A stretch of DNA of 64,000 bases from Agriterribacter humi (lineage in GTDB: Bacteria > Bacteroidota > Bacteroidia > Chitinophagales > Chitinophagaceae), in NCBI RefSeq assembly GCF_009192765.1, contig NZ_VOHQ01000003.1:62001-126000 (forward strand). Reading direction: 5' to 3'. A model generated the notes under the pieces. That model saw only the letters and a program-made list of their open reading frames with translations. It was not told the DNA's origin and made no database searches. The position numbers and the translations under genes are program-made. Below are positions 4,052 to 51,859 of the stretch, piece by piece; within the stretch, counting starts at the first letter, position 1; each line of letters begins with the position of its first letter.

Positions 4052-4086
4052 CTATAAACCATAAACTATAAACCATAAACTATAAA
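4052..4086 (+). repeat. Heptanucleotide tandem tract, nuoJ-nuoK gap
   Basis: Five exact 7-nt units in alternation: ctataaa, ccataaa, ctataaa, ccataaa, ctataaa. The tract begins four bases after the nuoJ stop and ends six bases before the nuoK ATG, so it takes the place of the ribosome binding site. The same units appear inverted at 34988-35022. Confidence 0.9.
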
Positions 4087-4092
4087 CGACCA

Positions 4093-4422
4093 ATGCCTTC
4101 CTTCACCGTGCATACCGTTTTAATTGTTTCAGCAGTACTTTTTGTATTGGGACTGATTGGTGTGCTCACGCGAAAGAATGTCATTTTTATGCTTATATCG
4201 GTGGAAATTATGTTGAATGCTGCCGGCCTTGCTTTTGTGGCGGCAGGTGCAAAATGGCAGCAGCCCGATGGGCAGGTGATGTTCCTGTTCATACTGGCAA
4301 TGGCTGCCGCCGAGGTTTCAATAGGACTGGCATTGGTACTGCAGATCTATCACCAGCATAAAACATTAGATGTTGAAAATATAACAGCATTAAAAGATGA
4401 AGCTGTAGACGAAATGGTATAA
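4093..4422 (+). CDS. nuoK: NADH-quinone oxidoreductase subunit K
   Basis: Small antiporter-like membrane subunit (MrpC homologue) of complex I. Its 109 residues have three membrane helices and the two conserved buried glutamates of the proton channel, Glu38 (SVEIMLNAAGL) and Glu74 (AAAEVSIGLAL). Start ATG 4093 sits six bases after the heptanucleotide tract; no Shine-Dalgarno sequence is visible, as is common in Bacteroidota. The C-terminal tail after residue 90 is charged. Position between nuoJ and nuoL is canonical. Confidence 0.96.
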   Translation: MPSFTVHTVLIVSAVLFVLGLIGVLTRKNVIFMLISVEIMLNAAGLAFVAAGAKWQQPDGQVMFLFILAMAAAEVSIGLALVLQIYHQHKTLDVENITALKDEAVDEMV

Positions 4423-4494
4423 CTGGTGATGGTTTAAACAGTAACATGTGTTAAAGCATCCGCCGCCATCTTTAAATTGAATAACTGGTATTTC

Positions 4495-6381
4495 ATGCAT
4501 CAGTATTTGTATCTTATACCTGCACTACCTTTACTGGGATTTCTTATTTTATCCCTGGCAGGGAAACATTTGCATAAAAGGGTTATAGCATGGATTGGTG
4601 CAGGTACAATAGGTGCAGCGGCACTCATTACTATATTGCTGGGCATTGAATTTTTACAAAGTCCGCCCGCTTCAGGCGCCTATACACAATTGTTATGGAA
4701 CTGGTTCAGTGCAGGACAGCTATCCGTTGCCGTTAGTATTACTGCAGATGCTTTGACACTGGTGTTTATTTTCGTCATCACTTTTGTTGGAGCGCTCATT
4801 CATATTTATTCCACCGCCTTTATGCGCAGGGACCGCGACTATGCCCGCTTTTTTGCGAGTATGAATTTGTTTGTGTGTTCCATGCTCGTTTTGGTAATGG
4901 CCGACAACCTGGTACTGCTGTATTTGGGGTGGGAAGGCGTAGGCCTGTGCAGTTATCTGCTTATCGGGTTCTGGTACGAAACCCCTGCCAATTGCCATGC
5001 GGCAAATAAGGCGTTTTATATTACGCGCATCGGTGATACCGCTATGGCTATTGGTTTGTTCTTGCTGTTTAAAGAATTGGGCTCATTGCATATTGCCACC
5101 ATCATAGAGCAGGCGCCAAAACATTTTGAAGCAGGCGATACGCATATTACCCTTATTGCGCTTTTATTGCTGGCAGGCGGTATTGGCAAATCGGCGCAAC
5201 TGCCGTTACAAACCTGGCTGCCCGATGCCATGGCAGGCCCTTCACCTGTAAGCGCATTGATCCACGCAGCTACTATGGTAACAGCCGGCGTATACCTTAT
5301 TGCGCGGATGCATACACTGTTTCAGCTTTCTCCTGTATCTATGACCGTTGTTGCGGTAATAGGGGCGCTTACCCTATTTATAGCAGGTTGCAGCGCTATG
5401 GTACAAACAGATATAAAACGAATACTGGCCTATTCTACCATCAGCCAGATCGGGTATATGTTTCTAGCATTGGGCGTGGGAGCATGGAGCGCGGCCATCT
5501 TTCATTTCTTTACACATGCCTTTTTTAAAGCCTTATTGTTCCTGGCCGCAGGGGCAGTAATAGAAGCCCTGCACCATGAACATAATATTTTTAAAATGGG
5601 CGGATTAAAAAATAGCATGCGTGTTGTATTTCTTACTTTCCTGGCCGGTGCTGCATCGCTGGCCGCCCTGCCATTGGTAACTGCCGGCTTCTTTAGCAAG
5701 GATCCTATATTGTGGTATGCATGGGGCGCTGCAAATGGCAATCCTTTTTTATGGATACTGGCAATAGCCGGTGCATTTATTACGGCTTTTTACAGTACCC
5801 GGTTAATGCTTGTTGTTTTTTGGGGTGAAAGAAAGACGCCTGTTGGAGACCATCCCGGCAAATGGATGACGGTGCCGCTCGTTATTTTGGGCATAGGTTC
5901 GGTTGCAGCGGGGTTTATAGAATGGCCCCACAACCTTGTGCATTTTACATTGTTTTCGGAACAGGTGCAGAAAGTATTACCCGCCGTTGTCTTAAAACAA
6001 AACCTTCCTTCCGAACTTATTTTCCAGGGTATTGCCGCCCTTGTAACATTTGCGGGACTATACACTGGTTATGTTTTATATTATAGCAACAAGGGGATAC
6101 TTGAAGGTTGGCGGCAATCTGCGGCTTTGCTGGCAATCAGAAATTTTTTACTGGGGGGATGGGGCTTTGATGATTTGTATCATGCATTGTTTGTACAGCC
6201 TTTTCTTTTCATTACCCGCATCAATAAGAAAGATGTATTTGACCGGCTGTACAATGGCATTGCGCAGGCTAATATCAATATTAACCGCCTGTTGTCGCTT
6301 ACGCAGAATGGCTCCTTGCGCTGGTATATTGCAGGTGTACTGCTCGGCATTTTATTCATTATAACCATGCAATTATTATGA
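4495..6381 (+). CDS. nuoL: NADH-quinone oxidoreductase subunit L
   Basis: Distal antiporter-like proton-pumping subunit of complex I (MrpA type), with the long lateral helix expected at the C-terminus. About 628 residues, 14 or more membrane helices. Typical stretches are GWEGVGLCSYLLIGFWYE, LPDAMAGPSPVSALIHAATM with the channel histidine, and DIKRILAYSTISQIGYMF. I prefer ATG 4495 (MHQYLYLIPALPLLGF), which places the first helix at the start; an in-frame TTG at 4477 would add six residues. Its stop overlaps the nuoM start (ATGA, 6378-6381). Confidence 0.96.
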   Translation: MHQYLYLIPALPLLGFLILSLAGKHLHKRVIAWIGAGTIGAAALITILLGIEFLQSPPASGAYTQLLWNWFSAGQLSVAVSITADALTLVFIFVITFVGALIHIYSTAFMRRDRDYARFFASMNLFVCSMLVLVMADNLVLLYLGWEGVGLCSYLLIGFWYETPANCHAANKAFYITRIGDTAMAIGLFLLFKELGSLHIATIIEQAPKHFEAGDTHITLIALLLLAGGIGKSAQLPLQTWLPDAMAGPSPVSALIHAATMVTAGVYLIARMHTLFQLSPVSMTVVAVIGALTLFIAGCSAMVQTDIKRILAYSTISQIGYMFLALGVGAWSAAIFHFFTHAFFKALLFLAAGAVIEALHHEHNIFKMGGLKNSMRVVFLTFLAGAASLAALPLVTAGFFSKDPILWYAWGAANGNPFLWILAIAGAFITAFYSTRLMLVVFWGERKTPVGDHPGKWMTVPLVILGIGSVAAGFIEWPHNLVHFTLFSEQVQKVLPAVVLKQNLPSELIFQGIAALVTFAGLYTGYVLYYSNKGILEGWRQSAALLAIRNFLLGGWGFDDLYHALFVQPFLFITRINKKDVFDRLYNGIAQANININRLLSLTQNGSLRWYIAGVLLGILFIITMQLL

Positions 6382-7844
6382 TACTGGTATGGCTGATAGC
6401 AATATTGCTCATTGGAGGCACATTGTGCTGGCTGCTGGCGCAGTGGAATAAAGTGTTTCCTAAATGGATCGCTTTATGTGCCACTGTTGCCGGTCTTGTA
6501 CTTATGGTATGGCTTTGCCTGCAATATAAAAATTCCGGAGACGGTGCCGGCAGCGAATGGTTTATCAATTACCGGCTTAGCTGGATCCCTGCTTTCGGCA
6601 TTAGTTTTCATTTGGCCTTAGACGGGTTAAGCCTGGTGCTGCTGTTGTTAACTTTTTTCCTGGGTATTTTGTCGGTGCTTTGCTCATGGAATGAGATCAA
6701 AGAAAAGCACGGGTTTTATTTTTTTAACCTGCTATGGACCCTCGCGGGCATTTGTGGTGTATTTGTAGCGATGGATCTTTTTCTCTTCTATTTCTTCTGG
6801 GAGGTAATGCTGGTGCCCATGTATTTTTTGATCTCAATATGGGGCGATACCAACCGGCGCTATGCATCCTATAAATTTTTTCTCTTCACCCAGGCAGGAG
6901 GTTTGTTGATGCTGTTGTCTATACTGGCCTTGTATTTTATTCATGCACAACAAACCGGTATATATTCTTTTGATTATTTTGATCTTCTCCATACTTCACC
7001 CGGCGCTTCCACTGCAAAATGGATCATGATGGGATTTCTCTTTGCCTTTATGGTTAAACTTCCGGTTGTACCTTTTCATAGCTGGTTGCCCGATGCGCAT
7101 AGCGAAGCACCAACAGCGGGAAGTTTAATCCTCGCAGGGCTGCTATTAAAAACGGGGGCTTATGGCATTATCCGTTTTGTGCTCACATTATTTCCCCAGC
7201 AGGCACAGGCATTTGGGTGGTGGGCCATGCTGCTGGGCGCCATTGGCATTTTATATGGCGCTTTCCTTGCCTTTGCCCAAACAGATCTGAAACGATTGAT
7301 CGCCTACACATCGGTTAGCCATATGGGATTTGTGCTGCTGGGTATTTTTGCTTTTAACGAAATAGCCATGCAGGGCGTGATCATGCAAATACTTACGCAC
7401 GGCATAAGTACCGGCGCTTTGTTTGTAATGGCCGGCATGCTCAAAGAAAGATTGCACACCAGGGATATTAACCAGATGGGCGGGTTATGGACGGCTATGC
7501 CTTTCATGGGTGGCGCGGCAATGCTGTTTACCATGGCTTCCCTGGGCTTGCCGATGCTGGGTAATTTTATTGCGGAGTTCCTGATCCTTATCGGGGCCTT
7601 TTCAGCCAGTGCTGCACTAACGGTGCTGGCCACCCTCGGGCTGATTTTTTCTGCATGCTATGCTTTGCGGATGATGCAAAAGGTTTTTTTGGGCCCTGCT
7701 ACGGTAACAGCGCCGCTGAAAGATATGAATGTGCGGGAATGGGTAATGATGTCGGCATTGACCATCGGAATTATTGTATTAGGACTGTTTCCGCAGCCTG
7801 TTATAGATATGGTGAAGGGAGTAGTGGGGGCGTTGGTTGATTAG
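6378..7844 (+). CDS. nuoM: NADH-quinone oxidoreductase subunit M
   Basis: Middle antiporter-like proton-pumping subunit of complex I (MrpD type). 488 residues, about 14 helices. The conserved glutamate helix is seen in FFWEVMLVPMYFLISIWG, the discontinuous-helix region in LPDAHSEAPTAGSLILAGLL followed by the channel lysine in LLKTGAYGIIRF, and the DLKRLIAYTSVSHMGFV motif after it. Four-base overlap with nuoL implies coupling. A 252-bp gap with a heptanucleotide tract separates it from nuoN. Confidence 0.97.
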   Translation: MILVWLIAILLIGGTLCWLLAQWNKVFPKWIALCATVAGLVLMVWLCLQYKNSGDGAGSEWFINYRLSWIPAFGISFHLALDGLSLVLLLLTFFLGILSVLCSWNEIKEKHGFYFFNLLWTLAGICGVFVAMDLFLFYFFWEVMLVPMYFLISIWGDTNRRYASYKFFLFTQAGGLLMLLSILALYFIHAQQTGIYSFDYFDLLHTSPGASTAKWIMMGFLFAFMVKLPVVPFHSWLPDAHSEAPTAGSLILAGLLLKTGAYGIIRFVLTLFPQQAQAFGWWAMLLGAIGILYGAFLAFAQTDLKRLIAYTSVSHMGFVLLGIFAFNEIAMQGVIMQILTHGISTGALFVMAGMLKERLHTRDINQMGGLWTAMPFMGGAAMLFTMASLGLPMLGNFIAEFLILIGAFSASAALTVLATLGLIFSACYALRMMQKVFLGPATVTAPLKDMNVREWVMMSALTIGIIVLGLFPQPVIDMVKGVVGALVD

Positions 7845-8003
7845 TTAGTTGTCTATACCGGCGCCTGATAAATTTGTGCAATGCTCAATAATGAACAGAA
7901 AGTACAAGGGTGCGACGCAACGGAAGAGTAATAGTAATCCTGTGGCCCGGCTCATAAAAAACAGTGCACATTTTTATGATGTATAATTAATTGATTGGTT
8001 AAC

Positions 8004-8066
8004 GGATGAGCGGATGACGGGTTTTGTATTTGATGATAGCTGATCGCTAACAGCCGATCGCCGAAA
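8004..8066 (+). repeat. Heptanucleotide tandem tract, nuoM-nuoN gap
   Basis: Nine units in one register: ggatgag, cggatga, cgggttt, tgtattt, gatgata, gctgatc, gctaaca, gccgatc, gccgaaa. The last four are clearly related (gcYgatc type). The rest of the 7845-8096 gap holds no open frame; it contains ggtgcgacgcaa at 7909-7920, a near match to 31502-31513. Confidence 0.65.
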
Positions 8067-8096
8067 CCCATATTATTCATTGTTTATTGCTGAAGT

Positions 8097-9536
8097 ATGA
8101 ATGAACTTCAATTTGAAGCGCTTCTTCCTTTTATAGTGCTGGCGGCGGCTTCTATGGCGGTAATATTACTGATCGCATTTCGGATGAGCCACACTGTTAT
8201 ACAGGTAGCAGCATTCCTTATGGCATGCCTGGTGATCTTTGCCATGTGGTATGTAAAAGATACGCTGCCGCAAAGCGTGCCGCCCTTATTTGTGGTAGAT
8301 GGCTTTGGGGCATTGTTTACGGGCATGATCATTTTTTCCATGATGGCAGTAGGTTTGTTTTCCTATATTTATTTTGAGGAGCGGGAGGAAAATCCGAAAG
8401 AATACTATATACTGTTATTCCTTGCCACACTGGGCGCCGCGACGCTTACCATCAGTACCCATTTTATTTCGCTGTTCATTGGGCTTGAAGTGCTGAGTGT
8501 GAGCTTATACGCGCTGATCGCCTACCTGCGCAACCGCAACAATGCTGTGGAATCCGGCATGAAATACCTGGTACTGGCGGCGGTGTCTTCCGCATTTCTT
8601 TTATTTGGAATGGCCCTTATATATATGGAAACCGGAAGCATGGAATTTGAGCGCATCGCGCAAAGCATAAAGGAATCATCATCATCGGTGCTGTTCAGCA
8701 TGGGCTTCGGAATTATGGTGGTAGCCATAGGTTTTAAGCTGGCATTGGTGCCATTTCATTTATGGGCAGCCGATGTATACCAGGGCGCCCCTTCACCGGT
8801 AACTGCCTTCATTGCTACGGTATCAAAAATTGGTGTGTTTGCTGTATTGTTGCGTTTTGCCCAATCGGTTAATCTGCCACAGTACCCGCTGGTGATCAGC
8901 ATTTTTTCTGTTATTGCCATGGCGTCTATGATAGTGGGTAACCTGCTGGCATTGCGGCAACAAAATATAAAGCGCCTGATGGGCTATTCGTCTATTGCGC
9001 ATTTTGGTTACCTGCTGGTTGCGTTTCTGCCGGGTAATGCTGCCGGGGTGGAGGCTGCCGCTTTTTACCTGCTTGCTTATTCGATTACTTTATTAGCTGT
9101 GTTTGGTGTTATTTCAGTATTATCAACCCGTATGAAAGATGCTGAGGATCTGGTTATTTATAAAGGGCTTTTTCATAAACAACCCATATTAACGGCTGTA
9201 TTAAGTATTTGTTTCCTTTCACTTGCGGGTATTCCGCTTACGGCCGGATTTATTGCTAAATTTTTTATATTGGCATCGGGTGTTCAGCAAAACCTATGGC
9301 TTCCTGTTCTGGTGCTGGTCATTACCAGTGTTATTGGTTTATATTATTACCTGCGCGTTATCAGTACCTTATTTGCAGCATCTTCGTCAACCGGCACTAC
9401 AGCAAAAACCCTGCACCCCTTCTTTTATATTTCTACCTATATTGCCTTAATTGTAATGATGCTTCTGTTATTCTGGCTCGGTATCTTTCCGGGCAGGGCA
9501 GTGGAGGGTATCCGGGAATTTTTACTTATCCGGTAA
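8097..9536 (+). CDS. nuoN: NADH-quinone oxidoreductase subunit N
   Basis: Proximal antiporter-like proton-pumping subunit of complex I (MrpD type), the last nuo gene here. 479 residues, about 14 helices. Family motifs include GLEVLSVSLYALIAYL with the conserved glutamate, DVYQGAPSPVTAFIATVSKI with the channel lysine, and NIKRLMGYSSIAHFGYLLV. Start ATG 8097. It is separated from nuoM by 252 bp with repeats but keeps the usual order, so it is likely part of the same transcript. recX converges from the other side. Confidence 0.96.
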   Translation: MNELQFEALLPFIVLAAASMAVILLIAFRMSHTVIQVAAFLMACLVIFAMWYVKDTLPQSVPPLFVVDGFGALFTGMIIFSMMAVGLFSYIYFEEREENPKEYYILLFLATLGAATLTISTHFISLFIGLEVLSVSLYALIAYLRNRNNAVESGMKYLVLAAVSSAFLLFGMALIYMETGSMEFERIAQSIKESSSSVLFSMGFGIMVVAIGFKLALVPFHLWAADVYQGAPSPVTAFIATVSKIGVFAVLLRFAQSVNLPQYPLVISIFSVIAMASMIVGNLLALRQQNIKRLMGYSSIAHFGYLLVAFLPGNAAGVEAAAFYLLAYSITLLAVFGVISVLSTRMKDAEDLVIYKGLFHKQPILTAVLSICFLSLAGIPLTAGFIAKFFILASGVQQNLWLPVLVLVITSVIGLYYYLRVISTLFAASSSTGTTAKTLHPFFYISTYIALIVMMLLLFWLGIFPGRAVEGIREFLLIR

Positions 9537-9629
9537 TGAACCATCCGGCAATGCCTGGATTTTTGTAAAGAAAGCTATTTCAATGATTCCGGAAATAAAT
9601 ATTTGTAAACCCTGTTAATGGCTACCCTC

Positions 9630-9671
9630 TCTCACCACTGACTACTCACCAGTCACCCCCTCACTCTTCCC
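9630..9671 (+). repeat. Heptanucleotide tandem tract, nuoN/recX 3' ends
   Basis: Six units in register: tctcacc, actgact, actcacc, agtcacc, ccctcac, tcttccc. The recX stop codon (9642-9644 on the - strand) and its last nine codons lie inside the tract. Confidence 0.8.
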
Positions 9672-10139
9672 CACATTGTTCACGGCTTCTTTCACCAGTT
9701 CATATTCATAACCTTTTTGCAAGAGGTAATCCTGCAATTTTCTTTTTTTTATAAAAATATTTTTCTCTCCCTTCAATTGCTCCCATTTTTTAGCGCACAA
9801 ATATTGCAGTGTTTTGTGGTAAGCTTCGTCATCAATTTGCGCCATGGCTTTTTTTATACAATAGCTGCTTACCTGCTTTTCTTTCAGTCCCTGCTCTATT
9901 TTCTTTTTTCCCCATTGTTTTATTCGGAACTTGCCTCCTGCAAATTGTATGGCAAAACGTTCCTCGTTCAGGTATCCTTCTTCTATTAATTGCGAAAGCA
10001 ACAGCTCTGCTTCATTTTTGTACAGGCCCAAATCGTATAATTTACCCATAACCTCCTTATGACTCCGCTCCTGGTAAGCGCAGTAGTGCTTTATTTTTGT
10101 GAGCGCCTGTTCTTTGGAAACCTTGCCGCGTGGTATCAT
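9642..10139 (-). CDS. recX: RecX family regulator of RecA
   Basis: Small helical protein that binds RecA filaments and modulates recombination and the SOS response. 165 residues built of three-helix repeats; typical stretches are ALTKIKHYCAYQERSHKEV near the start, YLNEERFAIQFAGGKFRIKQ in the middle (consensus LDExRFA) and YLLQKGYEYELVKEAV at the end. The last nine residues (GKSEGVTGE) are encoded by a heptanucleotide tract and are probably not part of the ancestral protein. It is divergent from dnaN and convergent with nuoN. recA is not in the window. Confidence 0.9.
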   Translation of the reverse strand: MIPRGKVSKEQALTKIKHYCAYQERSHKEVMGKLYDLGLYKNEAELLLSQLIEEGYLNEERFAIQFAGGKFRIKQWGKKKIEQGLKEKQVSSYCIKKAMAQIDDEAYHKTLQYLCAKKWEQLKGEKNIFIKKRKLQDYLLQKGYEYELVKEAVNNVGKSEGVTGE

Positions 10140-10237
10140 ATCAATAAATATAACAGCCTGTTGGCCGGAGCGGAAAGTTAGTGGATTAGTGGTTGATATT
10201 GTTTGAAAAAATAAGGGTAGTTTTATCGGCTTAATTC

Positions 10238-10245: not shown

Positions 10246-10270
10246 CCATAATCCTAATTTTAAGCGATTT

Positions 10271-11386: not shown

Positions 11387-11406
11387 CATTTTTAACTTTA
11401 CGGCTT

Positions 11407-18374: not shown

Positions 18375-19517
18375 CTATTCCTGTCCTGCATTGTCTAATA
18401 CCGCTGCAAGTTCTTTTTCCAGTGCGTCTCCTCTTAAATTCATGGCAATAATTTTTCCTTCAGGGTTTAACAACACGTTAAAAGGAATTCCTTCGATACT
18501 GTACAAAGGCACTACCATACTTTCCCATTCCTTTAAATCGCTTACATGCTGCCATGTTAGTCCGTCTTTATGAATGGCATTTAACCATGCTGCTTTATCC
18601 TTATCTAAGGACACTCCAAGAACAGTGAAATTTTTATCTTTATACGTGTTAAATGCAGCTAACACGGCCGGGTTCTCTTTTCTGCATGGGGCGCACCAGC
18701 TTGCCCAAAAATCTACCAGGATATATTTTCCCCTGAAGGATTGCAGTGAAACCGTTTGTCCTGTGGTATCCGGTAAACTAAATACCGGCGCGGTTTTGCC
18801 AACAGCCGGCATAGCCATTTGCTTTGTAAGAAATGCGTTATAGGCTTCGCTGATTTTTTTTACTTCCTCATTGTCTTTAAAACGATTGGACAACCTGGTG
18901 ATAAGTGGTTTCATTATGGCCGGATCTGTTTGTTTTTGCTGCAGGATGCCCAGCGCGTATAAGGCCACTGCCGGGGTCTTTGCCGTATCTGTATAATGCA
19001 ACAGGTATTCCTGCGTTTCTTGTGTTTTCTTTTGCTCAGCCTGGTTCCATATATTTTTTATACTGTCTGTTTCACTGCGCATGCTATTGCTTTTCAGGGT
19101 ATCAATAGCGGTCAAATAATTATTGAACGTAACGAGCAGGGTTTTAAGTGAGGAAGAACCCGGAGAGGATGCGGAATACGCTGAAAAATTATTCCAGTCG
19201 GCAGTTATACCAATAACCGGCTCATCATTGCTGAATAATATATACCTGCCATCCGCTTCAAATTTCACACTATAAATACCCTGTGCATCTGTAAGTGTTT
19301 CAAAGCGGCAACTGCCATTTCCCGCATCCATAGTGGCAGTATCCAATACAACGGCTGATGATCCATAGGACTTCCCAATAAGGGATACCACCTGTTTTTG
19401 CGGATTGTTCTGTATGGTAACATTCACCTGTGTCAGTTCCTGTTTTTGGTTGCAGGCAGTAAAAACCAAAAGGATTATGAATAAGTTGATTATCGGGGAG
19501 CTGTGTTTCATATACAT
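18375..19517 (-). CDS. TlpA/ResA-like thiol-disulfide oxidoreductase lipoprotein
   Basis: Periplasmic redox protein. 380 residues: lipobox LVFTAC near residue 21, an N-terminal DUF4369-like beta domain (about 28-130), a helical linker, and a C-terminal thioredoxin-fold AhpC/TSA-type domain (about 245-380) with the active site WASWCAPCRKENP. Such proteins reduce cytochrome c apoproteins or other thiols; many Bacteroidota encode several. The preferred start may be Met3 at 19511. No partner gene lies next to it; the PDZ gene upstream on the same strand has its own terminator. Confidence 0.9.
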   Translation of the reverse strand: MYMKHSSPIINLFIILLVFTACNQKQELTQVNVTIQNNPQKQVVSLIGKSYGSSAVVLDTATMDAGNGSCRFETLTDAQGIYSVKFEADGRYILFSNDEPVIGITADWNNFSAYSASSPGSSSLKTLLVTFNNYLTAIDTLKSNSMRSETDSIKNIWNQAEQKKTQETQEYLLHYTDTAKTPAVALYALGILQQKQTDPAIMKPLITRLSNRFKDNEEVKKISEAYNAFLTKQMAMPAVGKTAPVFSLPDTTGQTVSLQSFRGKYILVDFWASWCAPCRKENPAVLAAFNTYKDKNFTVLGVSLDKDKAAWLNAIHKDGLTWQHVSDLKEWESMVVPLYSIEGIPFNVLLNPEGKIIAMNLRGDALEKELAAVLDNAGQE

Positions 19518-34849: not shown

Positions 34850-34996
34850 ATGAACTCCTTTACAACGAGAAAGCCATTTGATCTTAACAGGTTGTTTTTC
34901 AGTTTGCTGAATAAAATTATGCAACGTCCTGATTTCTATCCCATAAAGTATTATCATAGAAGAAGACGGGGAAAAAGCGAACTGGAAAGTTTATAG
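34850..34996 (+). CDS. Doubtful 48-codon basic frame
   Basis: ATG 34850 to TAG 34996 reads MNSFTTRKPFDLNRLFFSLL ... HRRRRGKSELESL. It is basic with an Arg run and its stop lies in the first unit of a heptanucleotide tract. It is antisense to nothing and lies in the 392-bp gap 34709-35100, which otherwise holds only the repeat. No homology is claimed; it may be chance. Confidence 0.2.
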   Translation: MNSFTTRKPFDLNRLFFSLLNKIMQRPDFYPIKYYHRRRRGKSELESL

Positions 34997-35092
34997 TTTG
35001 AAGTTTGGAAGTTTATGGTTAGGAAGTTATCAGACTTTGTATACTGACTCTGTGCATTCTGATGCTGATAGCTGACGGCTGATACCCGACCA
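34988..35092 (+). repeat. Longest heptanucleotide tract (15 units), SNF2-kinase gap
   Basis: Fifteen consecutive 7-nt units share one register. First agtttat, agtttga, agtttgg, aagttta, tggttag, gaagtta (inverse of the ctataaa family), then less regular tcagact, ttgtata, ctgactc, tgtgcat, tctgatg, then ctgatag, ctgacgg, ctgatac, ccgacca. It ends eight bases from the SNF2 gene's stop. Confidence 0.85.
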
Positions 35093-35100: not shown

Positions 35101-38100
35101 TCAACTGAAAAGATATTCCACATCATCCCTCGAAAGGCTCTTGACGAAAGTGTTATCGTCTGCGATCAGATCTCGCGCTAAAGAACGCTTTTTCTCCTGC
35201 AATTGCAGGATCTTATCCTCAATGGTGTCTTTGCATATCATACGATAGGCAAAAATGTTTTTCGTTTGTCCAATACGGTGTGTACGGTCAATAGCCTGCT
35301 GTTCTACGGCAGGGTTCCACCAGGGATCCACGATATATACATAATCAGCCGCGGTAAGATTCAATCCCACGCCACCGGCTTTAAGAGAAATTAAAAATGC
35401 CCTGCAGGTATCATCGTTCTGAAAACGGTTGATGGCCTTTTCTCTTTCGTGTGCCGGAGTGCTTCCGTCGAAATATTCAAAGGGCACTTCCAGTGCTTTA
35501 AGTTTTTCCTTGATCAGGGCCAACATACCCAGGAACTGTGAAAAAACGAGCGCCTTATGATTGCTTATATTTTCGGTGATCTCTCTCGCTATTTCTTCCA
35601 GCTTGATGGAATGATTGGGATATTTTTCCGGTTCATTCATAATTGCGGGGGAGTCGCAGATCTGTCGCAGCTTCATTAACCCCTGCAAAATGGTTAGCTG
35701 CGAACGCTCAATCCCTTGTTCACTGATTACGCCTAATATCTTATTCCGGTAGTCGTTGCGGAAAGCTTCGTAAATTTCTCTTTGCTCGGTCTGCATTTCG
35801 CAAAACAGGATCGTTTCTGTTTTTTCGGGAAGATCTTTTGCCACCTGTTCTTTGGTGCGGCGCAGGATAAATGGATACAGCAGCTTTTTTAAATGTTCTT
35901 TCCTGTCCTGCTCTCCAAATTTATCAATAGGAGTAGCAAATTCATTCCGGAAATATTCAACACTGCCGAGCATGCCCGGATTCAAAAAATTCATCTGCGC
36001 ATAAATATCAAATGTATTATTCTGCAGGGGCGTACCGCTCAGGCAAAGCCGGTTTTTTGATAACAGCAGGCCGGCAGCTTTGGTTACCTTGCTCTGCGGG
36101 TTTTTAATAGCCTGCGATTCATCAAGAATAACGTAATCAAAATGCATTTCCGTAAGCAACTTAATATCGCTGCGCAAAGTGCCATAAGTTGTGATAATAA
36201 CGTTATAGGCATTAAAAACTTCTTTATTCCGGCCCCTGTCTCCACCATGATGAATGTGATAGGTAAGATCAGGGGTGAATTTTTTTATTTCATTTTCCCA
36301 GTTGAACATCAGGGTGGTGGGGCAAACCACTATGGCCTTCAGTGAATCATGGGTATCGCGGTAAAATTGTAAAAATGATAAGGCCTGTACTGTTTTACCC
36401 AAGCCCATATCATCGGCTAAAATGCCACCCCAGCCTACCTCGCTCAAATAATTAAGCCAGTGATAACCCGCTACCTGGTATGGACGTAAAATATGTTCCA
36501 GTCTTGGAGGCGGGTCAATTTCTTTAATGCGGTTAAATCCTCTCAGCCTGTTGTATTTCTCTTCCAGTTCTATTAAAACTTCGGCTTCATTCCTTTCTTC
36601 ATACAATTCATCTATTACACTGAGATGGTATTTTGAAAGACGCAAAGAATTATTCTTGCCTTCACCTACTCTGAACAGGAGTGAGTACTTTTTTAGCCAG
36701 CCCTCGGGTAATATGCCCAGTGTGCCATCATTAAGCTGAACAAACTGCTGTTTATTAACCAGCGCTCTTTTAATTTCGTCTATGCTTACCTGCTGGCCGT
36801 CAAACACTACTTTTACTTTGGCATCGAACCAGTCCATGCCACTGCTGATATGAATTTCAGTAGAAGGACGGGCTGTATTAAAGCGAAAGTTTTTCAGCAC
36901 ATCAAAACCCACTACCGGCACATTCATTTCTTTCATGCTGTCAACAAACAAAAAGAACCAGTTGTTCTTTAAAACATCCGCACCTTTTAAAGCCAGTGTG
37001 GCCGCACCTTCGGGATGAATGAAATTGGAATGAAGACTTTCTAACTTTTTTATAAATTGTAACTCCACCTGCCGGTTCCTGTGAATTTCCAGCACTTTAT
37101 CGTTTATCGGCAGCGTAATGATATCTTTTGCATTAAACCGTGTTTCAAAGCCTTTGTAGGAAAATACAGGTACAAACAACAGGTAATCTCCTTTTTCCTG
37201 CAGCAGTACTTTCACTTCCGGATCGCCATCCTTTACTTCCTGGACAAGGTTTTCGGCAAACCGTACTTTATAATCTTTTGTTAGCGGGATAATAATTTTT
37301 TTCAGGTAATCGGGCCAATCTTCCCCCTCAATAAGCTGGTTCTCCTTTTGGGCAAACCTTTCAATTTCCATTATATCTTCCTGCCTGCTCCAGTTATAAA
37401 AAGTATCCGCATACTTAAAAACCATATAACTGTTCCATTCGTTTTCCTGTAAAGGCACTTCAGCCCCGTTTACCTGCACATAACAGGCTATTTCCACTTT
37501 TGTTTTTTGGGTATTTACATGAAAAACGGGTGTTGCTGTTTCATCAGATAGCTGAACCGGAAGGAGATTGGATGTAATGAAACTTTTCCGGTGTGGTAAA
37601 AAATAGATGAGCGGGTTATCTTTTTGTTCGTTAAACAATTTAAGCAGTTTAGGATACCAGTACTCCGTGATCAGGGATTTGGTTTCTTCGGGAAGATCAT
37701 CGTCTTCATGATGGATAATGTTTTCCCAGATCCCCGAAAAAGGGGAATTGCGGCTCACATATTTATTTACTTCAGTTTCGTTCAGTTTACGGATTTGCTG
37801 CAGCAGTTGTTTATCCTGGTCTGTATACTGATCTGCATTTACAAACTTTGCAATATCAAGCTTTTCAATTTTGCCGCTAAAACTTATACCACTGTCATTT
37901 ATTTCACCGCTAATGGCATCCAGTCCAAAGTAAGGGTATACTCCTTTTGTTTCATTAAATACTACGCCAATGCGGTTGGTATTTTCAGCGGGCAGCGGAA
38001 CTTCTTCTTCAGCTATTACCGGTTCCTGTTCAGGAACAGCAGTGCGGGATTTGAGCAATCCACCGGATACAGGATCCGCTCTTTTAATAGAAGCATCAAG

Positions 38101-38865
38101 CACCCGCAAAAAAGGCTTCCCGTCTTTATAGGTAAATTCAAACTTCCCCGTCAGGTCATCATCCAGCGAATAGCCATATGCTTCCAGCAATTTATTTTTT
38201 TGCTTATCCCAGTTACGGATAGAGTCAAAATAATAAGGGCCGTAGGCATTGAGCAATTGCAGGAACAGGGCCACTTTATGTACACAAAGCGGATGTTCCT
38301 GTTCATCGCACTTGCAGGAAGTGTCAAAATTTCTTTCCTCATTTTTTTGTATTACCAAAGGGAAGGATTCGCCATTGTATACCAGGCTTGCTTCTACTCT
38401 TTCGTTTGCCGCACTTATGATATTCGCCTTTTGTTTTTGAAGTATTTTTTCGGCTTCAGTATAAATATCGGGCGAACTCAGCAGCCTGATGCTTTTAAGT
38501 TCAATATCCCTCATTTTTATGACGGTATGGCGCTGGTGATACAGTACATCTTTTTCACCGAGCACATTTTTATCTAACAGTTCCTGCAACTGGAGTAAAG
38601 CTGCTGTTTCATGGCGACAAATATCCCCCAAATTGTACGGACAGGTACAGCGAACCGACAGACCTTTGGGGTCTTTATATTTTTGGACATATACTTTGTA
38701 AAAAGTGGCATAACTGTCATCCTTTACTCTAAAGGTAACCGAACCCAGCAGGTCATCGTGTTCTATTAATTCAACGTAGCCAATAGAATGGATTTTTTTA
38801 CCCCTGCGGATCACTTCATCTGTGCCATTATTATATACAAACTTAATAAGATGTGGTAAAGCCAT
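35101..38865 (-). CDS. SNF2-family helicase with two SWIM zinc fingers
   Basis: 1254-residue DNA-dependent ATPase of the bacterial SNF2/RapA-like class. Near the N-terminus two SWIM fingers share the same CxC-x7-CxH spacing: Cys73, 75, 83, His85 (CTCPYNLGDICRH) and Cys184, 186, 194, His196 (CKCDEQEHPLCVH). A long beta-rich middle region follows. The motor starts near 780: Walker A ILADDMGLGKTVQAL (about 815), DEAH variant VILDESQAIKN (about 915), and motif VI QAIDRTHRIGQ (about 1190). Such proteins remodel protein-DNA complexes; the exact role here is unknown. Single-gene unit. Confidence 0.93.
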   Translation of the reverse strand: MALPHLIKFVYNNGTDEVIRRGKKIHSIGYVELIEHDDLLGSVTFRVKDDSYATFYKVYVQKYKDPKGLSVRCTCPYNLGDICRHETAALLQLQELLDKNVLGEKDVLYHQRHTVIKMRDIELKSIRLLSSPDIYTEAEKILQKQKANIISAANERVEASLVYNGESFPLVIQKNEERNFDTSCKCDEQEHPLCVHKVALFLQLLNAYGPYYFDSIRNWDKQKNKLLEAYGYSLDDDLTGKFEFTYKDGKPFLRVLDASIKRADPVSGGLLKSRTAVPEQEPVIAEEEVPLPAENTNRIGVVFNETKGVYPYFGLDAISGEINDSGISFSGKIEKLDIAKFVNADQYTDQDKQLLQQIRKLNETEVNKYVSRNSPFSGIWENIIHHEDDDLPEETKSLITEYWYPKLLKLFNEQKDNPLIYFLPHRKSFITSNLLPVQLSDETATPVFHVNTQKTKVEIACYVQVNGAEVPLQENEWNSYMVFKYADTFYNWSRQEDIMEIERFAQKENQLIEGEDWPDYLKKIIIPLTKDYKVRFAENLVQEVKDGDPEVKVLLQEKGDYLLFVPVFSYKGFETRFNAKDIITLPINDKVLEIHRNRQVELQFIKKLESLHSNFIHPEGAATLALKGADVLKNNWFFLFVDSMKEMNVPVVGFDVLKNFRFNTARPSTEIHISSGMDWFDAKVKVVFDGQQVSIDEIKRALVNKQQFVQLNDGTLGILPEGWLKKYSLLFRVGEGKNNSLRLSKYHLSVIDELYEERNEAEVLIELEEKYNRLRGFNRIKEIDPPPRLEHILRPYQVAGYHWLNYLSEVGWGGILADDMGLGKTVQALSFLQFYRDTHDSLKAIVVCPTTLMFNWENEIKKFTPDLTYHIHHGGDRGRNKEVFNAYNVIITTYGTLRSDIKLLTEMHFDYVILDESQAIKNPQSKVTKAAGLLLSKNRLCLSGTPLQNNTFDIYAQMNFLNPGMLGSVEYFRNEFATPIDKFGEQDRKEHLKKLLYPFILRRTKEQVAKDLPEKTETILFCEMQTEQREIYEAFRNDYRNKILGVISEQGIERSQLTILQGLMKLRQICDSPAIMNEPEKYPNHSIKLEEIAREITENISNHKALVFSQFLGMLALIKEKLKALEVPFEYFDGSTPAHEREKAINRFQNDDTCRAFLISLKAGGVGLNLTAADYVYIVDPWWNPAVEQQAIDRTHRIGQTKNIFAYRMICKDTIEDKILQLQEKKRSLARDLIADDNTFVKSLSRDDVEYLFS

Positions 38866-41405: not shown

Positions 41406-41452
41406 GAAAATCGAATATTAAAATAATGTTAGTCTGCATGTTATCTTGAAAA

Positions 41453-41529
41453 GTGAGAGGTGAATAGTGAAAGGTTTAAATCATCTATTGCCTGTTCACA
41501 TACCTTATACCATACCCCTTATTCTCTTC
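41453..41529 (+). repeat. Heptanucleotide tracts upstream of gcvT
   Basis: gtgagag, gtgaata, gtgaaag, gtttaaa (41453-41480), then accttat, accatac, cccttat, tctcttc (41502-41529). The first group is the inverse of the actcacc family at 9630. Confidence 0.65.
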
Positions 41530-41614
41530 ACAGTGAATACGTCAGATATTGTTAAGTTGACAATAGTATCATATTTACTGCAAACCCGCTGCTGCATAAG
41601 CGACCGGCACATCC

Positions 41615-41702
41615 CTGCAACCTGCCCTTTCCCTGCAACTTGTAACCTGCACCCTGCATCCCCTCCCTCTTCCTTACTCCTTACCGCCTTCCCCCTCTTC
41701 CT
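41615..41702 (+). repeat. Heptanucleotide tract over the carbonic anhydrase stop
   Basis: ctgcaac, ctgccct (41615-41628), then ten units in register from 41633: ctgcaac, ttgtaac, ctgcacc, ctgcatc, ccctccc, tcttcct, tactcct, taccgcc, ttccccc, tcttcct. It contains the stop and last eight or nine codons of the gene at 41674. Confidence 0.8.
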
Positions 41703-42210
41703 TAAACCAATTGCTGTACATAAGATAATTGTTAGCAATGCGGTTAATTTCTCCACTGATCAGTTCCTCCGGTACATTCTTCACTTTTTTTGCAGGTACG
41801 CCTGCATAAATGGAACCTGCTTCTACTTTTACGCCTTCTAATATTACAGCTCCCGCCGCAATAATGGAATGGCTTCCTATTTCGGCATTGTCCATTATAA
41901 TGGCGCCCATACCAATCAAAACATTGTCGTGCACCGTGCAGCCATGCACAATGGCATTGTGACCAATACTAACGTTATTTCCGATAATGGTTTTTGTTTT
42001 TTGATAAGTGCAATGTATCACGGCCCCATCCTGTATATTAACTTTATTGCCTATGCGGATGGAATTAACATCGCCTCTTACCACCGCATTAAACCATATG
42101 CTGCAGTCATCCCCCATTGTTACATCCCCCACTATTGTAGCATTAGGCGCTATATAGCAATTTTGGCCAAAAACAGGAGATACTCCCTTTACGGGCAATA
42201 ATAATGGCAT
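41674..42210 (-). CDS. Gamma-class carbonic anhydrase-like hexapeptide protein
   Basis: 178 residues of left-handed beta-helix hexapeptide repeats (IGNKVNIQDGAVI, IGNNVSIGHNAIVHGCTVHD, IGMGAIIMDNAEIGSHSIIA), as in the PaaY/YrdA/gamma-CA group. The zinc ligands are probably the histidines in VIHCTYQ, SIGHNAIVHG. Function ranges from carbonic anhydrase to thioesterase or unknown; catalysis is not certain. The acidic end EEGEGGKE is encoded inside a heptanucleotide tract and looks acquired. The start at ATG 42210 gives the usual N-terminus for this group. Confidence 0.9.
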   Translation of the reverse strand: MPLLLPVKGVSPVFGQNCYIAPNATIVGDVTMGDDCSIWFNAVVRGDVNSIRIGNKVNIQDGAVIHCTYQKTKTIIGNNVSIGHNAIVHGCTVHDNVLIGMGAIIMDNAEIGSHSIIAAGAVILEGVKVEAGSIYAGVPAKKVKNVPEELISGEINRIANNYLMYSNWFKEEGEGGKE

Positions 42211-43342: not shown

Positions 43343-43346
43343 CAAT

Positions 43347-46178: not shown

Positions 46179-46217
46179 CGCCAGCCAAAAATCAATTATT
46201 TTACATAACAATTCATT

Positions 46218-46241
46218 CCTGCTTCACGGAGGCAGGTTTTT
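46218..46241 (+). terminator. Rho-independent terminator after the LuxR-type gene
   Basis: cctgcttc pairs with gaggcagg (one wobble, loop acg), followed by five Ts. The next gene begins 12 bases later. Confidence 0.8.
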
Positions 46242-46252
46242 ATGCATTAAAC

Positions 46253-47065: not shown

Positions 47066-47083
47066 ACCCCATAATTATATGTA

Positions 47084-48187: not shown

Positions 48188-48304
48188 TAATTTGTCCAAC
48201 GCCGGAACCCTCCATAATAAGCCCGGCACGGAACCCACAGCCTGTCGCCCTGATGCAGGAAAGATAATCCACCTCCGCCATTGGGGATTACTCTTCGACC
48301 CTTA

Positions 48305-48325
48305 AAAATGATCGCGCATCATTTT
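48305..48325. terminator. Perfect hairpin between convergent genes
   Basis: aaaatgat and atcatttt are perfect 8-bp arms around cgcgc. The T-rich ends on both strands suggest a bidirectional terminator for nagA and the T9SS gene, although the T-run is short. Confidence 0.55.
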
Positions 48326-48363
48326 GGATCAGTTCAGGGTCTCGTAAATGACGTTCAGTGTCA

Positions 48364-49905
48364 TTACCTTACAATCTTCCGAACATAGTTATTACCCGGA
48401 GTTCTGGCTGTTAAAAAATAAACGCCATTGCTTAGGCCCTGTAATCCATCCATCATATAGCTGTACCTGCCGGGTGTGCACTGCAATTGCTTAAGCATTA
48501 GTGTTCTTCCGTGCATATCTGTGATGCTGAACTGAACGGGTTGGCGTTTGTCGCTGTAAAAGCTGATGTCTAATTTATCCCTGAAAGGATTGGGCGCCAC
48601 AATCAAATTGAATTGCATATTGCTGCTATCCTTTACGCTCAGTGTTTTACTGTATGTATATTTTCCATCGGGTGAAATGATCTTAACCCGGTAAAATCTC
48701 TGTGCGGATACCAGGGGTTCTTTATCTGTAAAACGGAACAGTTGGGAGCCGGTATTCGTGTTGTACACTTTGCCTATAGACCTGTATGCTCCGTTGCCAT
48801 TATCAGAAGCTTCCACTTCAAAATAGGCAGCGCCGGCTTCACTATATTCCCAGGTAAGCACTACTTCGTTAGTGCTGATGCGCGATGTGAAATTGGCAAT
48901 GCCGAAGGGGAGGACGTATTGGGCTGTCCAGGCATCGGTGTTTAATCCGTATAAACTTTGCTCTTCTCCTGAGATGAAATTTTCATTGGCAATTAAAACA
49001 CGGGTTTGGTTAACAGCGGTGATACTTTCAAGCTGGTATCCGCCATTTGTAAGGCTAATACTTCTTTTGTTGCCTGTAGTAAATAAAGAATTCATATCCG
49101 AAAAGCCGGAGATCATCCAAATGGCGCCGTACGAAAATATGTTGCTACCCAACAAAACAACAATATTATCATTGGCTTTTGTAGCGCTTGTAATTAAGGC
49201 TCCCGTACTGAAACTCTCAAGGTATGTGGCGACATGCGTTCCTGGTGTAGCAGGTAATGTATAATGTTTGCTACCGTTACCATCCCAATTTTTAGTAAAC
49301 AAGTGCAACATGCCATTATGATAAATCACCGCTTCGCAATCAAAAGGAGTAGAATTGGCTCCTACCGGGCTGGGAGGATCGGGCTGATCTTCATACCTGA
49401 AATTGATGGTTTCTATATCTGCCGCAGGCACCGTACCCGTGGTTCCGGTAATATCTGCAATGCTTTGCACAGGAACCCGGTAAAATTTAAGATCGGTTCT
49501 GGCTCCGTTAGCATTATTCCCAAAATCACCCACATATATATAGGTCCCGTCTGTTGTAAGGTCTTCCCAGTCAACATTGGTGGTACTTTCTAATGTAATT
49601 GTTTGATCAATAGCGCCGCTTGTTGAATCCAGCACATAAATAGCATGGGCATTCCCTCCATCATTCAGCGCATACAATTTACCATTAATATGGATCATAC
49701 CGCTTATTTCTGCAAGCGTTGAGGAAAGATCGGCTTTTTTAGTAAGAGAACCGCTTGTAGTACCATATGTGCATGAACCATTATTAACCGTGGCCGATGG
49801 CTCATAGTTATTAGCCAATGGATCCATACAACCCGGCACATCCTGTGCACGAAGGGAGTAGCTTGCTGTAAAGCACAGCAAAAGCGCAATAAAAATGATA
49901 CGCAT
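48364..49905 (-). CDS. Secreted beta-propeller-like protein with T9SS sorting domain
   Basis: 513 residues: signal peptide (MRIIFIALLLCFTASYSLRA), a short Cys-containing module GCMDPLANNYEPSATVNNGS known from many secreted Bacteroidota proteins, a beta-rich region (about 60-340) with propeller-like repeats, a fibronectin-like segment (about 340-425) and a C-terminal sorting domain (about 430-513; LIVAPNPFRDKLDISF, GLSNGVYFLTAR) ending VRKIVR. It should leave the cell through the type IX system and be surface-attached or released. No enzyme motif is apparent. Confidence 0.88.
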   Translation of the reverse strand: MRIIFIALLLCFTASYSLRAQDVPGCMDPLANNYEPSATVNNGSCTYGTTSGSLTKKADLSSTLAEISGMIHINGKLYALNDGGNAHAIYVLDSTSGAIDQTITLESTTNVDWEDLTTDGTYIYVGDFGNNANGARTDLKFYRVPVQSIADITGTTGTVPAADIETINFRYEDQPDPPSPVGANSTPFDCEAVIYHNGMLHLFTKNWDGNGSKHYTLPATPGTHVATYLESFSTGALITSATKANDNIVVLLGSNIFSYGAIWMISGFSDMNSLFTTGNKRSISLTNGGYQLESITAVNQTRVLIANENFISGEEQSLYGLNTDAWTAQYVLPFGIANFTSRISTNEVVLTWEYSEAGAAYFEVEASDNGNGAYRSIGKVYNTNTGSQLFRFTDKEPLVSAQRFYRVKIISPDGKYTYSKTLSVKDSSNMQFNLIVAPNPFRDKLDISFYSDKRQPVQFSITDMHGRTLMLKQLQCTPGRYSYMMDGLQGLSNGVYFLTARTPGNNYVRKIVR

Positions 49906-50187
49906 TTTATATAATTACTTTAAAGTTTCCTTTTGTAAACAGAGGTAGAGGCCGCAGGTAACGGAGGTTCTTATATAGGGATTGACTTGATGTTAAATTT
50001 AATACAGCTACATGCTGTGATAGTGTAAGATTAGAAGTAAGACATTGGGATAAGGGATTCGATCGGGATAATCAGATTGCTAAAGTAATAATTATATAAG
50101 GATAAAAAAAGAAAGGACTGTGTTATTATTGCATTATCTCCGGCAAGGTTCCTGTAAGGTATGCTTATCCGTTAGTACCCGCTGTAT

Positions 50188-51690
50188 TTATTGTATTGCA
50201 GATGAATCTTTTATGATCTCTATCACCTTATCCATTTTGCCATCTCTGCCCTTCCTTATATTTTCAACCGTAGGCGGCACATAAATGTCGGGCATAACGC
50301 CCCTTCCGTCTTTTGACACATGATGATATTGCACCAGCCTGAATAAAGGCATCCTCACCTTCATTTTGGTTTCAGGCAATACCACATCCGGAATAAGTAT
50401 ACCGCTGTTGCCATGCGCTCCGCCGCCGGCTTCTTCACCCACAAGCAATACATTGGACTGTCCTTTTACGGCATGTGAAAATAAAGTGGAAGCCGAAAAT
50501 GTGGGTCCGTTGATCAATACAAAAACCTTCCCTTTATAATGATTTTTTTCCCGGGGATGGAATACATGGTTTTCCCAGTACCTGAAATGATACCTGCCAT
50601 CTTCCTTTTTAGTGGTGGTAAAAAAGAGGATCATCGAATTGAGCCATCCCGAGCTGAAATATCGTTTATACCGCCCCAGTCCATTGTGCATGGCTGTGGC
50701 TGTATCGGCTACTTTAAACGGTGTATCGCGTATATACCGGGCAAGGGAGGTATAGTTATTTACCTTGCCGCCCCCATTGGTGCGCAGGTCAATAACTAAG
50801 TTGGGAATATTTTTTTTCCGGAGTTGCCTGAAGCTTTTTCTAAAAAAAGAAGGCAGTCTTCCCTTGCTTCCAAAACTGTGTACAGTCATTATAGCCAGTG
50901 AATGGGTAGTATCCATTTTCAGCGATCGAAAATTCTCCCATTTCGCCGGCTTCTCTTCCGGGTCAATTTGTTTGTTCCTGTTTCGTATAAAGTTTCTTGC
51001 CAGGCTGTCGGTAGCCGGATCAAATAATGCAACGGTATCTGTTCTTTCAGTGCCTGTGCTGTCTGTATATTCAACTGTATATTTCTTCGACAAGCCCATA
51101 ATGTTGCGGTGATAATATGGAAATGCCGCGCTGAGCCGTATATAATTCACGTTCTCTGCATAGCCGTCTGTTGGCATAAACTGAAATAGCGTATCTGCCA
51201 GTTGCTGCACATCAAGCCCGTTAATGCGGGTAATTAATGTGCCGCTTTTTAAAGTACTGTCTTTTTTATTGAGGTTGGAAGTAAGCACCATGGTATCGGG
51301 CCATATTTTCATGAACAGCGGAAAAGAGGGTTGTGCATGCTCACGCTGGCGCCTGCTGTATGCCCGTGGATAATTAAAACTGGTATGTCCGCAGTGCACT
51401 CTGGTAGTTAAAGGGGCAAGTATGGTAAAGCCAAACTGCTGCCGGGTCATAGAATCTGTAATGGCATTGTAGTATTTATCGAAATAATAATCCATGCTGT
51501 CTTTTGGCGTATACCAATACAGGGCGGGGTGAAACTCCTCCATTATTTCGCGAAGCAGGGCATAATCTTTACGCAAAGCTTCGGCCGGAAATTTTTTAGC
51601 CGGATCCATCATTTTCCTGGTGGTTCCACAACTTGCCGCGAATATTATAAGGACAGATAATAGTAAACCATGCTTAGACCTGTTTGCCAT
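50188..51690 (-). CDS. S41-family peptidase lipoprotein
   Basis: About 500 residues from ATG 51690. The lipobox LIIFAASCGTT indicates an outer-membrane or periplasmic lipoprotein. A helical N-terminal part precedes the S41 core (about 280-480): LAIMTVHSFGSKGRLPSFF, NLVIDLRTNGGGKVNNYTSL and FVLINGPTFSASTLFSHAV with the putative nucleophile Ser. The TSPTSPG lysine region is less clear. Related proteins are tail-specific proteases of unclear role. The gap 49906-50187 downstream has no gene. Confidence 0.87.
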   Translation of the reverse strand: MANRSKHGLLLSVLIIFAASCGTTRKMMDPAKKFPAEALRKDYALLREIMEEFHPALYWYTPKDSMDYYFDKYYNAITDSMTRQQFGFTILAPLTTRVHCGHTSFNYPRAYSRRQREHAQPSFPLFMKIWPDTMVLTSNLNKKDSTLKSGTLITRINGLDVQQLADTLFQFMPTDGYAENVNYIRLSAAFPYYHRNIMGLSKKYTVEYTDSTGTERTDTVALFDPATDSLARNFIRNRNKQIDPEEKPAKWENFRSLKMDTTHSLAIMTVHSFGSKGRLPSFFRKSFRQLRKKNIPNLVIDLRTNGGGKVNNYTSLARYIRDTPFKVADTATAMHNGLGRYKRYFSSGWLNSMILFFTTTKKEDGRYHFRYWENHVFHPREKNHYKGKVFVLINGPTFSASTLFSHAVKGQSNVLLVGEEAGGGAHGNSGILIPDVVLPETKMKVRMPLFRLVQYHHVSKDGRGVMPDIYVPPTVENIRKGRDGKMDKVIEIIKDSSAIQ

Positions 51691-51768
51691 ACCGGTAAAA
51701 ATAAAATCCAAAATCCAAACGGAGGGGAAAAATGTGAGAATGGGGGAAATGTGAGAAATGGGGAGATG

Positions 51769-51859
51769 GTTGCAAGTCTCAGGTTACAAGTTGCAGGGGA
51801 CATCCTGTTGTTGGCGGCTCTTCACCCTCATACCTCATGCCTGAGACCTGCAACCTACT
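51769..51859. repeat. Heptanucleotide tract forming an inverted repeat, thiL 3' end
   Basis: Thirteen units in one register: gttgcaa, gtctcag, gttacaa, gttgcag, gggacat, cctgttg, ttggcgg, ctcttca, ccctcat, acctcat, gcctgag, acctgca, acctact. The start (51769-51783) pairs with 51840-51854 over 15 bases with one G-T. The thiL stop lies in the last unit. Confidence 0.85.

Follow-up and report, generated by a model that had tools for sequence, protein, structure and literature searches.

The DNA considered here is a window of 64,000 nucleotides from the genome of Agriterribacter humi, a member of the Chitinophagaceae in the phylum Bacteroidota (contig NZ_VOHQ01000003.1, positions 62,001 to 126,000 of the forward strand; coordinates below are those of the window). 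Its open reading frames (ORFs) include NADH dehydrogenase-type proteins, an SNF2 helicase and a protein of the AIR-synthase family, and seven of the gaps between them carry arrays of degenerate heptanucleotide units, or heptads, repeated in tandem. In all seven gaps, lag 7 tops every lag from 4 to 12, and comparison with 2000 first-order Markov shuffles gives p ≤ 0.0005 in six of them and p = 0.03 at 9630-9671. Tandem Repeats Finder reports a period of 7 or 14 at 4043-4087, 34987-35014, 41447-41475, 41632-41658 and 51768-51797, and no period-7 repeat in the gaps at 8004, 9630 or 18306. An earlier note on this DNA had described a strict 7-nt period in these gaps; the period stands, but the adjective is too strong, as several tracts show phase breaks and switches of unit type, and 41453-41702 is composed of two periodic blocks flanking a less regular middle. 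Similarly, the tracts are mainly intergenic, as had been proposed, but three of the gaps extend into the 3′ end of an ORF on the minus strand (9642-10139, 41674-42210 and 51855-52883), and the first tract begins at 4043, within the end of the upstream ORF.

Heptad arrays are a feature of the whole genome. Specifically, a sample of 1.264 Mb of the 5.69-Mb, 34-contig genome, including the window, displays an excess of lag-7 identity in its noncoding DNA, with values of 0.298, 0.289 and 0.283 at lags 7, 14 and 21 against approximately 0.27-0.28 at neighbouring lags. In a smaller subset of 464 kb, coding DNA has no lag-7 identity peak, and the noncoding tracts that pass a threshold of 12 number 44 at lag 7, none at lag 6 and 6 at lag 8, with a mean of 0.65 in 20 shuffles (a minimum ORF length of 80 amino acids was adopted for these two analyses, and a masked run of N in the stretch L009 adds one false tract to the coding column of the counts). 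Moreover, units are shared between loci. The unit pair CTATAAACCATAAA has 42 matches with at most one mismatch, compared to 7 for the reversed control, and a 12-mer is common to 694 of the 12,494 pairs of tracts from different loci (5.6%), compared to 0.5% under a null model of column permutation that keeps period and composition. In other words, the unit types do recur elsewhere in the genome, and the tracts form a related set and are not independent stretches of low complexity, as the earlier note had suggested. Excess of the period, noncoding location and spread through the genome are all observed, and place the arrays in the class of intergenic heptanucleotide repeats. It has to be considered that 30 of the 60 stretches sampled from this genome contain a listed pattern match, many having been chosen for it, so that the density of tracts is biased upward, a bias which the counts of placement and strand should not share.

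The position of the arrays with respect to genes follows a clear rule. Taking as genes the longest ORFs of at least 100 amino acids, whose start codons are therefore approximate, a stop-aligned profile of 921 genes reveals that the lag-7 excess sets in within the 10 nt that end with the stop codon, reaches its maximum at +10 to +19 and is mostly gone by +90; the signal around start codons is far smaller. Among gaps of 30-700 nt, a tract is held by 52/285 and 32/171 of the tandem ones, by 27/99 of the convergent ones and by 4/111 of the divergent ones. Divergent gaps of other genomes hold a tract in 0/19 cases in G069, 1/22 in G141 and 0/10 in G009, G058, G055 and G027 together. In addition, the tracts obey a strand rule. 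In particular, the sense strand of the 102 tracts nearest to a stop in A. humi has more G than C in 81 cases and less in 19, and when only the 72 tracts within 30 nt of the stop are counted, it is G-rich in 63 and C-rich in 7; farther than 30 nt from the stop, in tandem gaps, the polarity is weak (12:10). The rule is repeated in ten named loci of relatives (26 with G>C versus 4, n=31) and in G009, G058, G055 and G027 (9 versus 0, n=9). Sense unit types found after stops include AGGTTGC, AGTTTAT, GTGAGTA and GATTTGA, those found before starts include AACTATA, GCTGATA and TCAAATT, and some tracts stop 4-9 nt short of the start codon.

Two simple explanations are not supported. Quadruplexes built on runs of three G do not account for it, since it persists (57:11) in the 69 of the 102 stop-nearest tracts that are free of GGG and CCC; tracts devoid of GG and CC are only 14, with a polarity of 10:3, and two-G quadruplexes are thus still compatible with it. 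The stop codon itself is not clearly a seed of the arrays, nor do these look like insulators of it, as in 598 genes, at offsets up to 30, a gene's own stop recurs with frequencies of 0.023, 0.032 and 0.030 at +7, +14 and +21, compared to 0.015-0.030 elsewhere.

The tracts of the window are collected in Table 1. The first of them, which lies upstream of two Proton_antipo_M ORFs (NADH dehydrogenase type), begins in the last codons of the ORF at 3533-4048 and leaves 5 nt to the ATG at 4093; the one at 34988-35092 stops 8 nt short of the SNF2-helicase ORF (35101-38865, minus strand), on the side of its stop codon. The window encodes a NuoN-like protein with an identity of 88% to that of a Sphingobacteriales-labelled metagenome-assembled genome, 84% to that of a metagenome-assembled genome of the Chitinophagaceae and 77% to that of Chitinophaga sp. 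CF118. At the gathering score, Rfam has no match in the window. Other repeats are found here as well. A tandem repeat of 17-18 nt (AAATGTGAGAAATGGGGG) at 51724-51768 adjoins on the left the heptad tract that starts at 51769, and an extra lag-7 tract of TTTCATG/TTTAATT units (62089-62143) is found where two minus-strand ORFs meet, most of it within sequence predicted to be coding. Finally, 7897-7975 is occupied by an intergenic element that recurs in dispersed copies and whose core, GTACAAGRGTGCGACGCAAC, is nearly invariant. It is also present in the stretches L029, L062 (two copies), L118, L179 and L185 (7 matches with at most 4 substitutions in 209 sequences), has no Rfam match and a consensus fold of 4 pairs without covariation, and in L179 and L185 it lies approximately 400-630 nt from a match to the transposase family Y1_Tnp.

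Table 1. Heptad tracts in the A. humi window, with strand and context
Units	Position	Strand	Context or source
AACTATA/AACCATA, 6.4 copies	4043..4087	+	register print, ORFs, Tandem Repeats Finder
GCTGATA/GCCGATC type at right end	8004..8066	+	gap before ORF at 8097 (Proton_antipo_M, NuoN-like)
ACTCACC type (sense GGTGAGT)	9630..9671	-	overlaps stop end of ORF 9642-10139 (-); weakest of the seven, p = 0.03
CTGATAG and CCTGCAA/CTTGTAA	18307..18363	-	convergent gap; 11 nt from stop of ORF 18375-19517 (-)
Two blocks: AGTTTAT type left, CTGATAG/CTGACGG type right	34988..35092	unassigned	
Left block, GTGAGAG/GTGAATA/GTGAAAG	41453..41480	+	register print, Tandem Repeats Finder
Right block, sense AGGTTAC/AGGGTGC/AAGTTGC	41634..41696	-	overlaps stop end of ORF 41674-42210 (-)
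Left block, GTTGCAA/GTCTCAG/GTTACAA	51769..51797	+	register print, Tandem Repeats Finder
Right block, sense AGGTTGC/AGGTCTC/AGGTATG	51826..51856	-	at stop of ORF 51855-52883 (-), AIR-synthase family

Arrays at corresponding gaps differ among relatives. The locus L029 aligns with positions 3-9532 of the window in two long blocks of 78% and 83% identity; the 8004-8066 array, located between NuoM and NuoN, differs there by a single internal indel of minus 14 nt, equal to two units, with a few other indels outside the array, and in the gap at 4052 the start-proximal units are kept and GTG-rich sequence follows the stop. In other relatives, with species of Niastella and Longitalea among them, the gap upstream of NuoN contains GTTCATA (L039), GTTTAAA types (L040), GGTAACT (L043) or approximately 19 copies of GCCGACT (L045). 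The NuoM and NuoN ORFs abut in 9 of 12 loci of Chitinophaga, and the comparison does not settle the remaining 3 (an apparent gap of 1458 nt in L033 and L060 is false, an upstream ORF having been missed). The GCCGACT run, from Niastella soli, is near-perfect and likely a recent expansion, and in the same gap of Longitalea arenae (L043) a repeated block, CCTGTGTGCTGTCGCTCAGGGC, alternates with heptads. Between the genomes G069 and G141, a GGTTACC-type block placed directly after a stop in one is missing from the other. As a separate observation, a 430-bp stretch of G069 (L116, 17881-18330) harbours a higher-order repeat of AGGTTAC/CGGTTGC heptads, of about 70 nt by eye; a related genome, G141, has many diverged matches to it at other sites. 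Within arrays, identity declines steadily from 0.547 at lag 7 to 0.370 at lag 35 (86 windows).

The number of arrays per genome is also highly variable. Array load was calculated as the sum of all four census pattern columns (the reversed pattern is itself 7-periodic), and a few matches per genome are expected by chance. Among 195 genomes of the family, it is at least 40 in 85 and below 10 in 74, and in the genus to which A. humi belongs the values are 261, 177 and 6. A contrast of at least 10-fold within the genus is observed in 16 of 31 genera, in a hand-picked list that leans to variable ones. At the level of the phylum, 301 of 392 genomes have at least one pattern match, although single matches can be due to chance; many families have tens to hundreds of matches and some have none or almost none.

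The explanation that we favour, with moderate confidence, is that these degenerate heptanucleotide arrays are the form taken in Bacteroidota by a class already described in cyanobacteria, Xanthomonas and Beggiatoaceae, and that they would grow by slippage, spread, and be tolerated at the 3′ ends of genes. Most likely, arrays would grow and shrink through tandem duplication of 7 nt during replication, drawing on unit families that are common to the loci of one genome. They sit mainly between the stop codon and about 90 nt past it, and their rarity in the divergent gaps of A. humi would result from purging from promoters; on the sense strand they are G-rich just after stops, and before starts a weaker trend runs the other way. 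The majority of copies would probably be tolerated and not required, because the load differs so sharply within genera.

A number of points weigh against this explanation. Slippage and copying between loci are proposals made from sequence comparison, and short arrays, too, produce a fall in lag identity. In the 5 array gaps comparable between G069 and G141, two differences in length are multiples of 7 (42 and 77) and three are not (-71, -5 and 102), and indel lengths have no excess at 7 nt. Tracts occupy 4 of the 10 divergent gaps in the ten named loci, where no avoidance is seen, and the trend before starts is weak (29 start-nearest tracts with G<C and 18 with G>C, n=47). Furthermore, simple tolerance does not predict a strand rule, whose polarity peaks in convergent gaps, at 27:1 within 30 nt of the stop. 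The rule itself is not seen in the stretches of G069 (2 versus 2, n=5) or of G141 (6 versus 8, n=14), the two genomes with the highest array load of the family sample. Slippage and spread are therefore best considered a default model, and the rule of gene end and strand is not fully covered by current explanations.

The main alternative, a tentative one which we consider possible but doubtful, is that the arrays are transcript boundaries that take the place of intrinsic terminators and stop opposing or read-through transcripts via a factor such as Rho. On this account, the tract of a gene is G-rich in its own mRNA, but C-rich and G-poor to a transcript coming from the other side, in line with the polarity of 27:1 in convergent gaps. 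The C-rich strand has indeed a composition of 0.298 C and 0.101 G, and the RNA-binding domain of Rho is present in 9 of the 9 genomes searched. Moreover, among gaps of 40-350 nt, strong hairpin-plus-T terminators are scarce where arrays are present. In convergent gaps of A. humi, they occur in 3/25 with arrays versus 22/56 without (p=0.018), in a second set formed by G069, G141, G009, G058, G055 and G027 in 1/9 versus 20/34 (p=0.021), and in all convergent gaps pooled in 5/37 versus 42/97 (p=0.001), the expectation in shuffled gaps being 0-2%. Tandem gaps lean in the same direction (4/69 versus 37/305, 1/17 versus 15/95 and, in the named relatives, 1/30 versus 2/36), and convergent and tandem gaps together give 7/94 versus 59/361 in A. 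humi (p=0.03) and 2/26 versus 35/129 in the second set (p=0.04). Polarity, convergent enrichment and scarcity of terminators thus fit a transcript boundary, and the last of these is a lead on function.

Against such a role stands, in the first place, the behaviour of the named relatives, where terminators are found in 1/3 convergent gaps with arrays versus 0/7 without, and in 2/33 versus 2/43 convergent and tandem gaps, with no effect (p=1.0). The scarcity of terminators is a late and unplanned result, and it could simply mean that arrays survive where terminators are unneeded. The length free of tracts is shorter in array gaps (91 versus 128 nt in A. humi, 66 versus 75 nt in the second set), and this may account for some of the scarcity. 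Rho is also encoded in the array-poor genomes G063, G030 and G118, and tracts between close co-directional genes fit termination poorly. In addition, Rho sites of the YC type, a pyrimidine followed by C, are depleted and not enriched on the C-rich strand, with a frequency of 0.521 versus 0.609 in shuffles. A shielding of downstream genes in operons from Rho is not supported as the cause of the polarity, which is strongest in convergent gaps. A broader proposal, which we regard as rather unlikely, would join these elements: heptad arrays would be a single class across phyla, defined by period, stop anchoring and strand and not by sequence, acting in array-rich Bacteroidota as two-way, factor-dependent boundaries that replace intrinsic terminators, with units that drift while polarity is kept.

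Repetitive extragenic palindromic (REP) sequences and bacterial interspersed mosaic elements (BIMEs), associated with REP-associated tyrosine transposases (RAYTs), are extragenic repeats that also favour convergent and tandem gaps. Single-strand transposases of the Y1 (HUH) type, either IS200/IS605 or REP-associated, could make or move heptad arrays, an idea that we judge improbable. The number of Y1_Tnp matches correlates with array load in the 195 family genomes (rho 0.45, and 0.41 after genome size) and within genera (r=0.20, permutation p=0.028; 161 genomes of 64 genera), while the correlations of DDE_Tnp_1 (0.11) and RVT_1 (0.03) are not significant. The within-genus p value is however modest, as three families were tested, and for a few genomes the match numbers mean at least that many. 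Furthermore, Y1_Tnp matches are absent from 11 of the 85 array-rich genomes, and beside Y1 genes (30 loci from 6 genomes) lag-7 identity equals the background, at 0.276 in both cases, with tracts in 5 of the 30 loci. A. humi arrays differ from REP and BIME elements in having no hairpin signal at individual loci and no clustering at Y1 genes, and membership in the REP/RAYT family is rejected on the same grounds. Copying by reverse transcriptase is likewise rejected, as A. humi and G027 are array-rich without an RVT_1 match, as are 55 of the 85 array-rich genomes overall, in keeping with the rho of 0.03.

The earlier note had proposed that three units, 21 bp in length, could allow phased binding of a protein. 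That the arrays would serve as sites to which a protein binds in phase, on DNA or RNA, seems to us highly improbable: unit families do recur and some tracts stop 4-9 nt upstream of a start codon, but units are swapped between species at one and the same gap, lag identity falls with distance, and the strongest anchor is the stop and not the start or promoter. Least probable of all are hairpins of RNA or DNA formed at each locus by complementary heptad arms, which we reject because, even if within gaps of A. humi the tracts on the left are G-rich and those on the right C-rich, some gaps look paired, and G027 array gaps have a median folding z of -3.26 (n=5), array gaps of A. humi fold no better than others (median z -0.16, n=31, versus -0.28, n=40) and the left and right sides of one gap are no more complementary than those of different gaps (p=0.15; between gaps versus shuffled, p=4e-5), with the same picture in a Niastella-like set. 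The left-right pattern is one of shared polarity, not of co-evolving arms.

Repeats grown by slippage and tolerated at gene ends, as favoured above, are to be compared with known heptamer systems. Heptameric short tandem repeats (STRRs) have been described in heterocystous cyanobacteria, and the likeness of form pointed out in the earlier note is confirmed. The same note knew of no account in this phylum, but direct repeats of TAACTGA are known from five Bacteroidetes, besides Beggiatoaceae and cyanobacteria, and, in that paper's account, other heptamer repeats share some of the TAACTGA gaps and a translational regulator is proposed for TAACTGA (MacGregor 2015, PMC4679880). As described there, these repeats resemble the A. 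humi arrays in their AAC-core heptamers, in standing forward before starts, with one set reversed just after a stop, and in their patchy distribution among relatives. They differ in having one exact unit, mostly before starts, whereas A. humi has degenerate units and the stop as main anchor. Exact TAACTGA is not among the listed A. humi units, which are of CTATAAA, AGGTTGC, GTGAGTA and CTGATAG types, no genome-wide search for it having been made. MacGregor (PMC4679880) also cites Mrazek 2007 as proposing slippage tied to a 7-nt contact of the polymerase.

A parallel in placement is offered by the GGGAATC and GGGGA(C/T)T heptamers of Xanthomonas and Nostoc, which form quadruplexes in vitro and whose function, according to the study that describes them, is still to be found (Rehm et al. 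2015, PMC4692102). As presented there, these repeats share with the A. humi arrays the period of 7, the intergenic location and a G-rich strand that is sense within 50 nt after stops, overlap with the stop included, and antisense upstream of ORFs; they are under-represented between divergent ORFs, length and sequence vary among close species, and inverted pairs occur in Xanthomonas (PMC4692102). There, the unit type with its G-run is read as quadruplex-forming and the regions are called stable; in A. humi several degenerate unit families coexist and the rule holds without GGG or CCC. Surveys of long simple sequence repeats (Mrazek 2007, cited in PMC4679880 and PMC4692102) seek series of repeats, as far as these citations describe them, and might miss degenerate arrays. 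In the open-access literature searched, and within the search wording used, degenerate heptads anchored at stops were not found described for Chitinophagaceae. The A. humi arrays are, in other words, a known kind of repeat in a more general form, namely a degenerate, multi-family variant with a strand rule that is independent of three-G runs.

Why bacteria gather heptamers has so far been answered motif by motif, with a quadruplex in one case and a regulator site in another. The rule of gene end and strand known from Xanthomonas and Nostoc now extends to a third phylum, in which the units are different and for the most part lack GGG; this suggests a common cause in period, position or transcription and not in one motif. 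Degenerate heptad arrays are easily missed by annotation. The contrast of load among members of one genus, and the low frequency of terminators in those convergent gaps that bear arrays, offer direct comparisons by which such a common cause could be sought.

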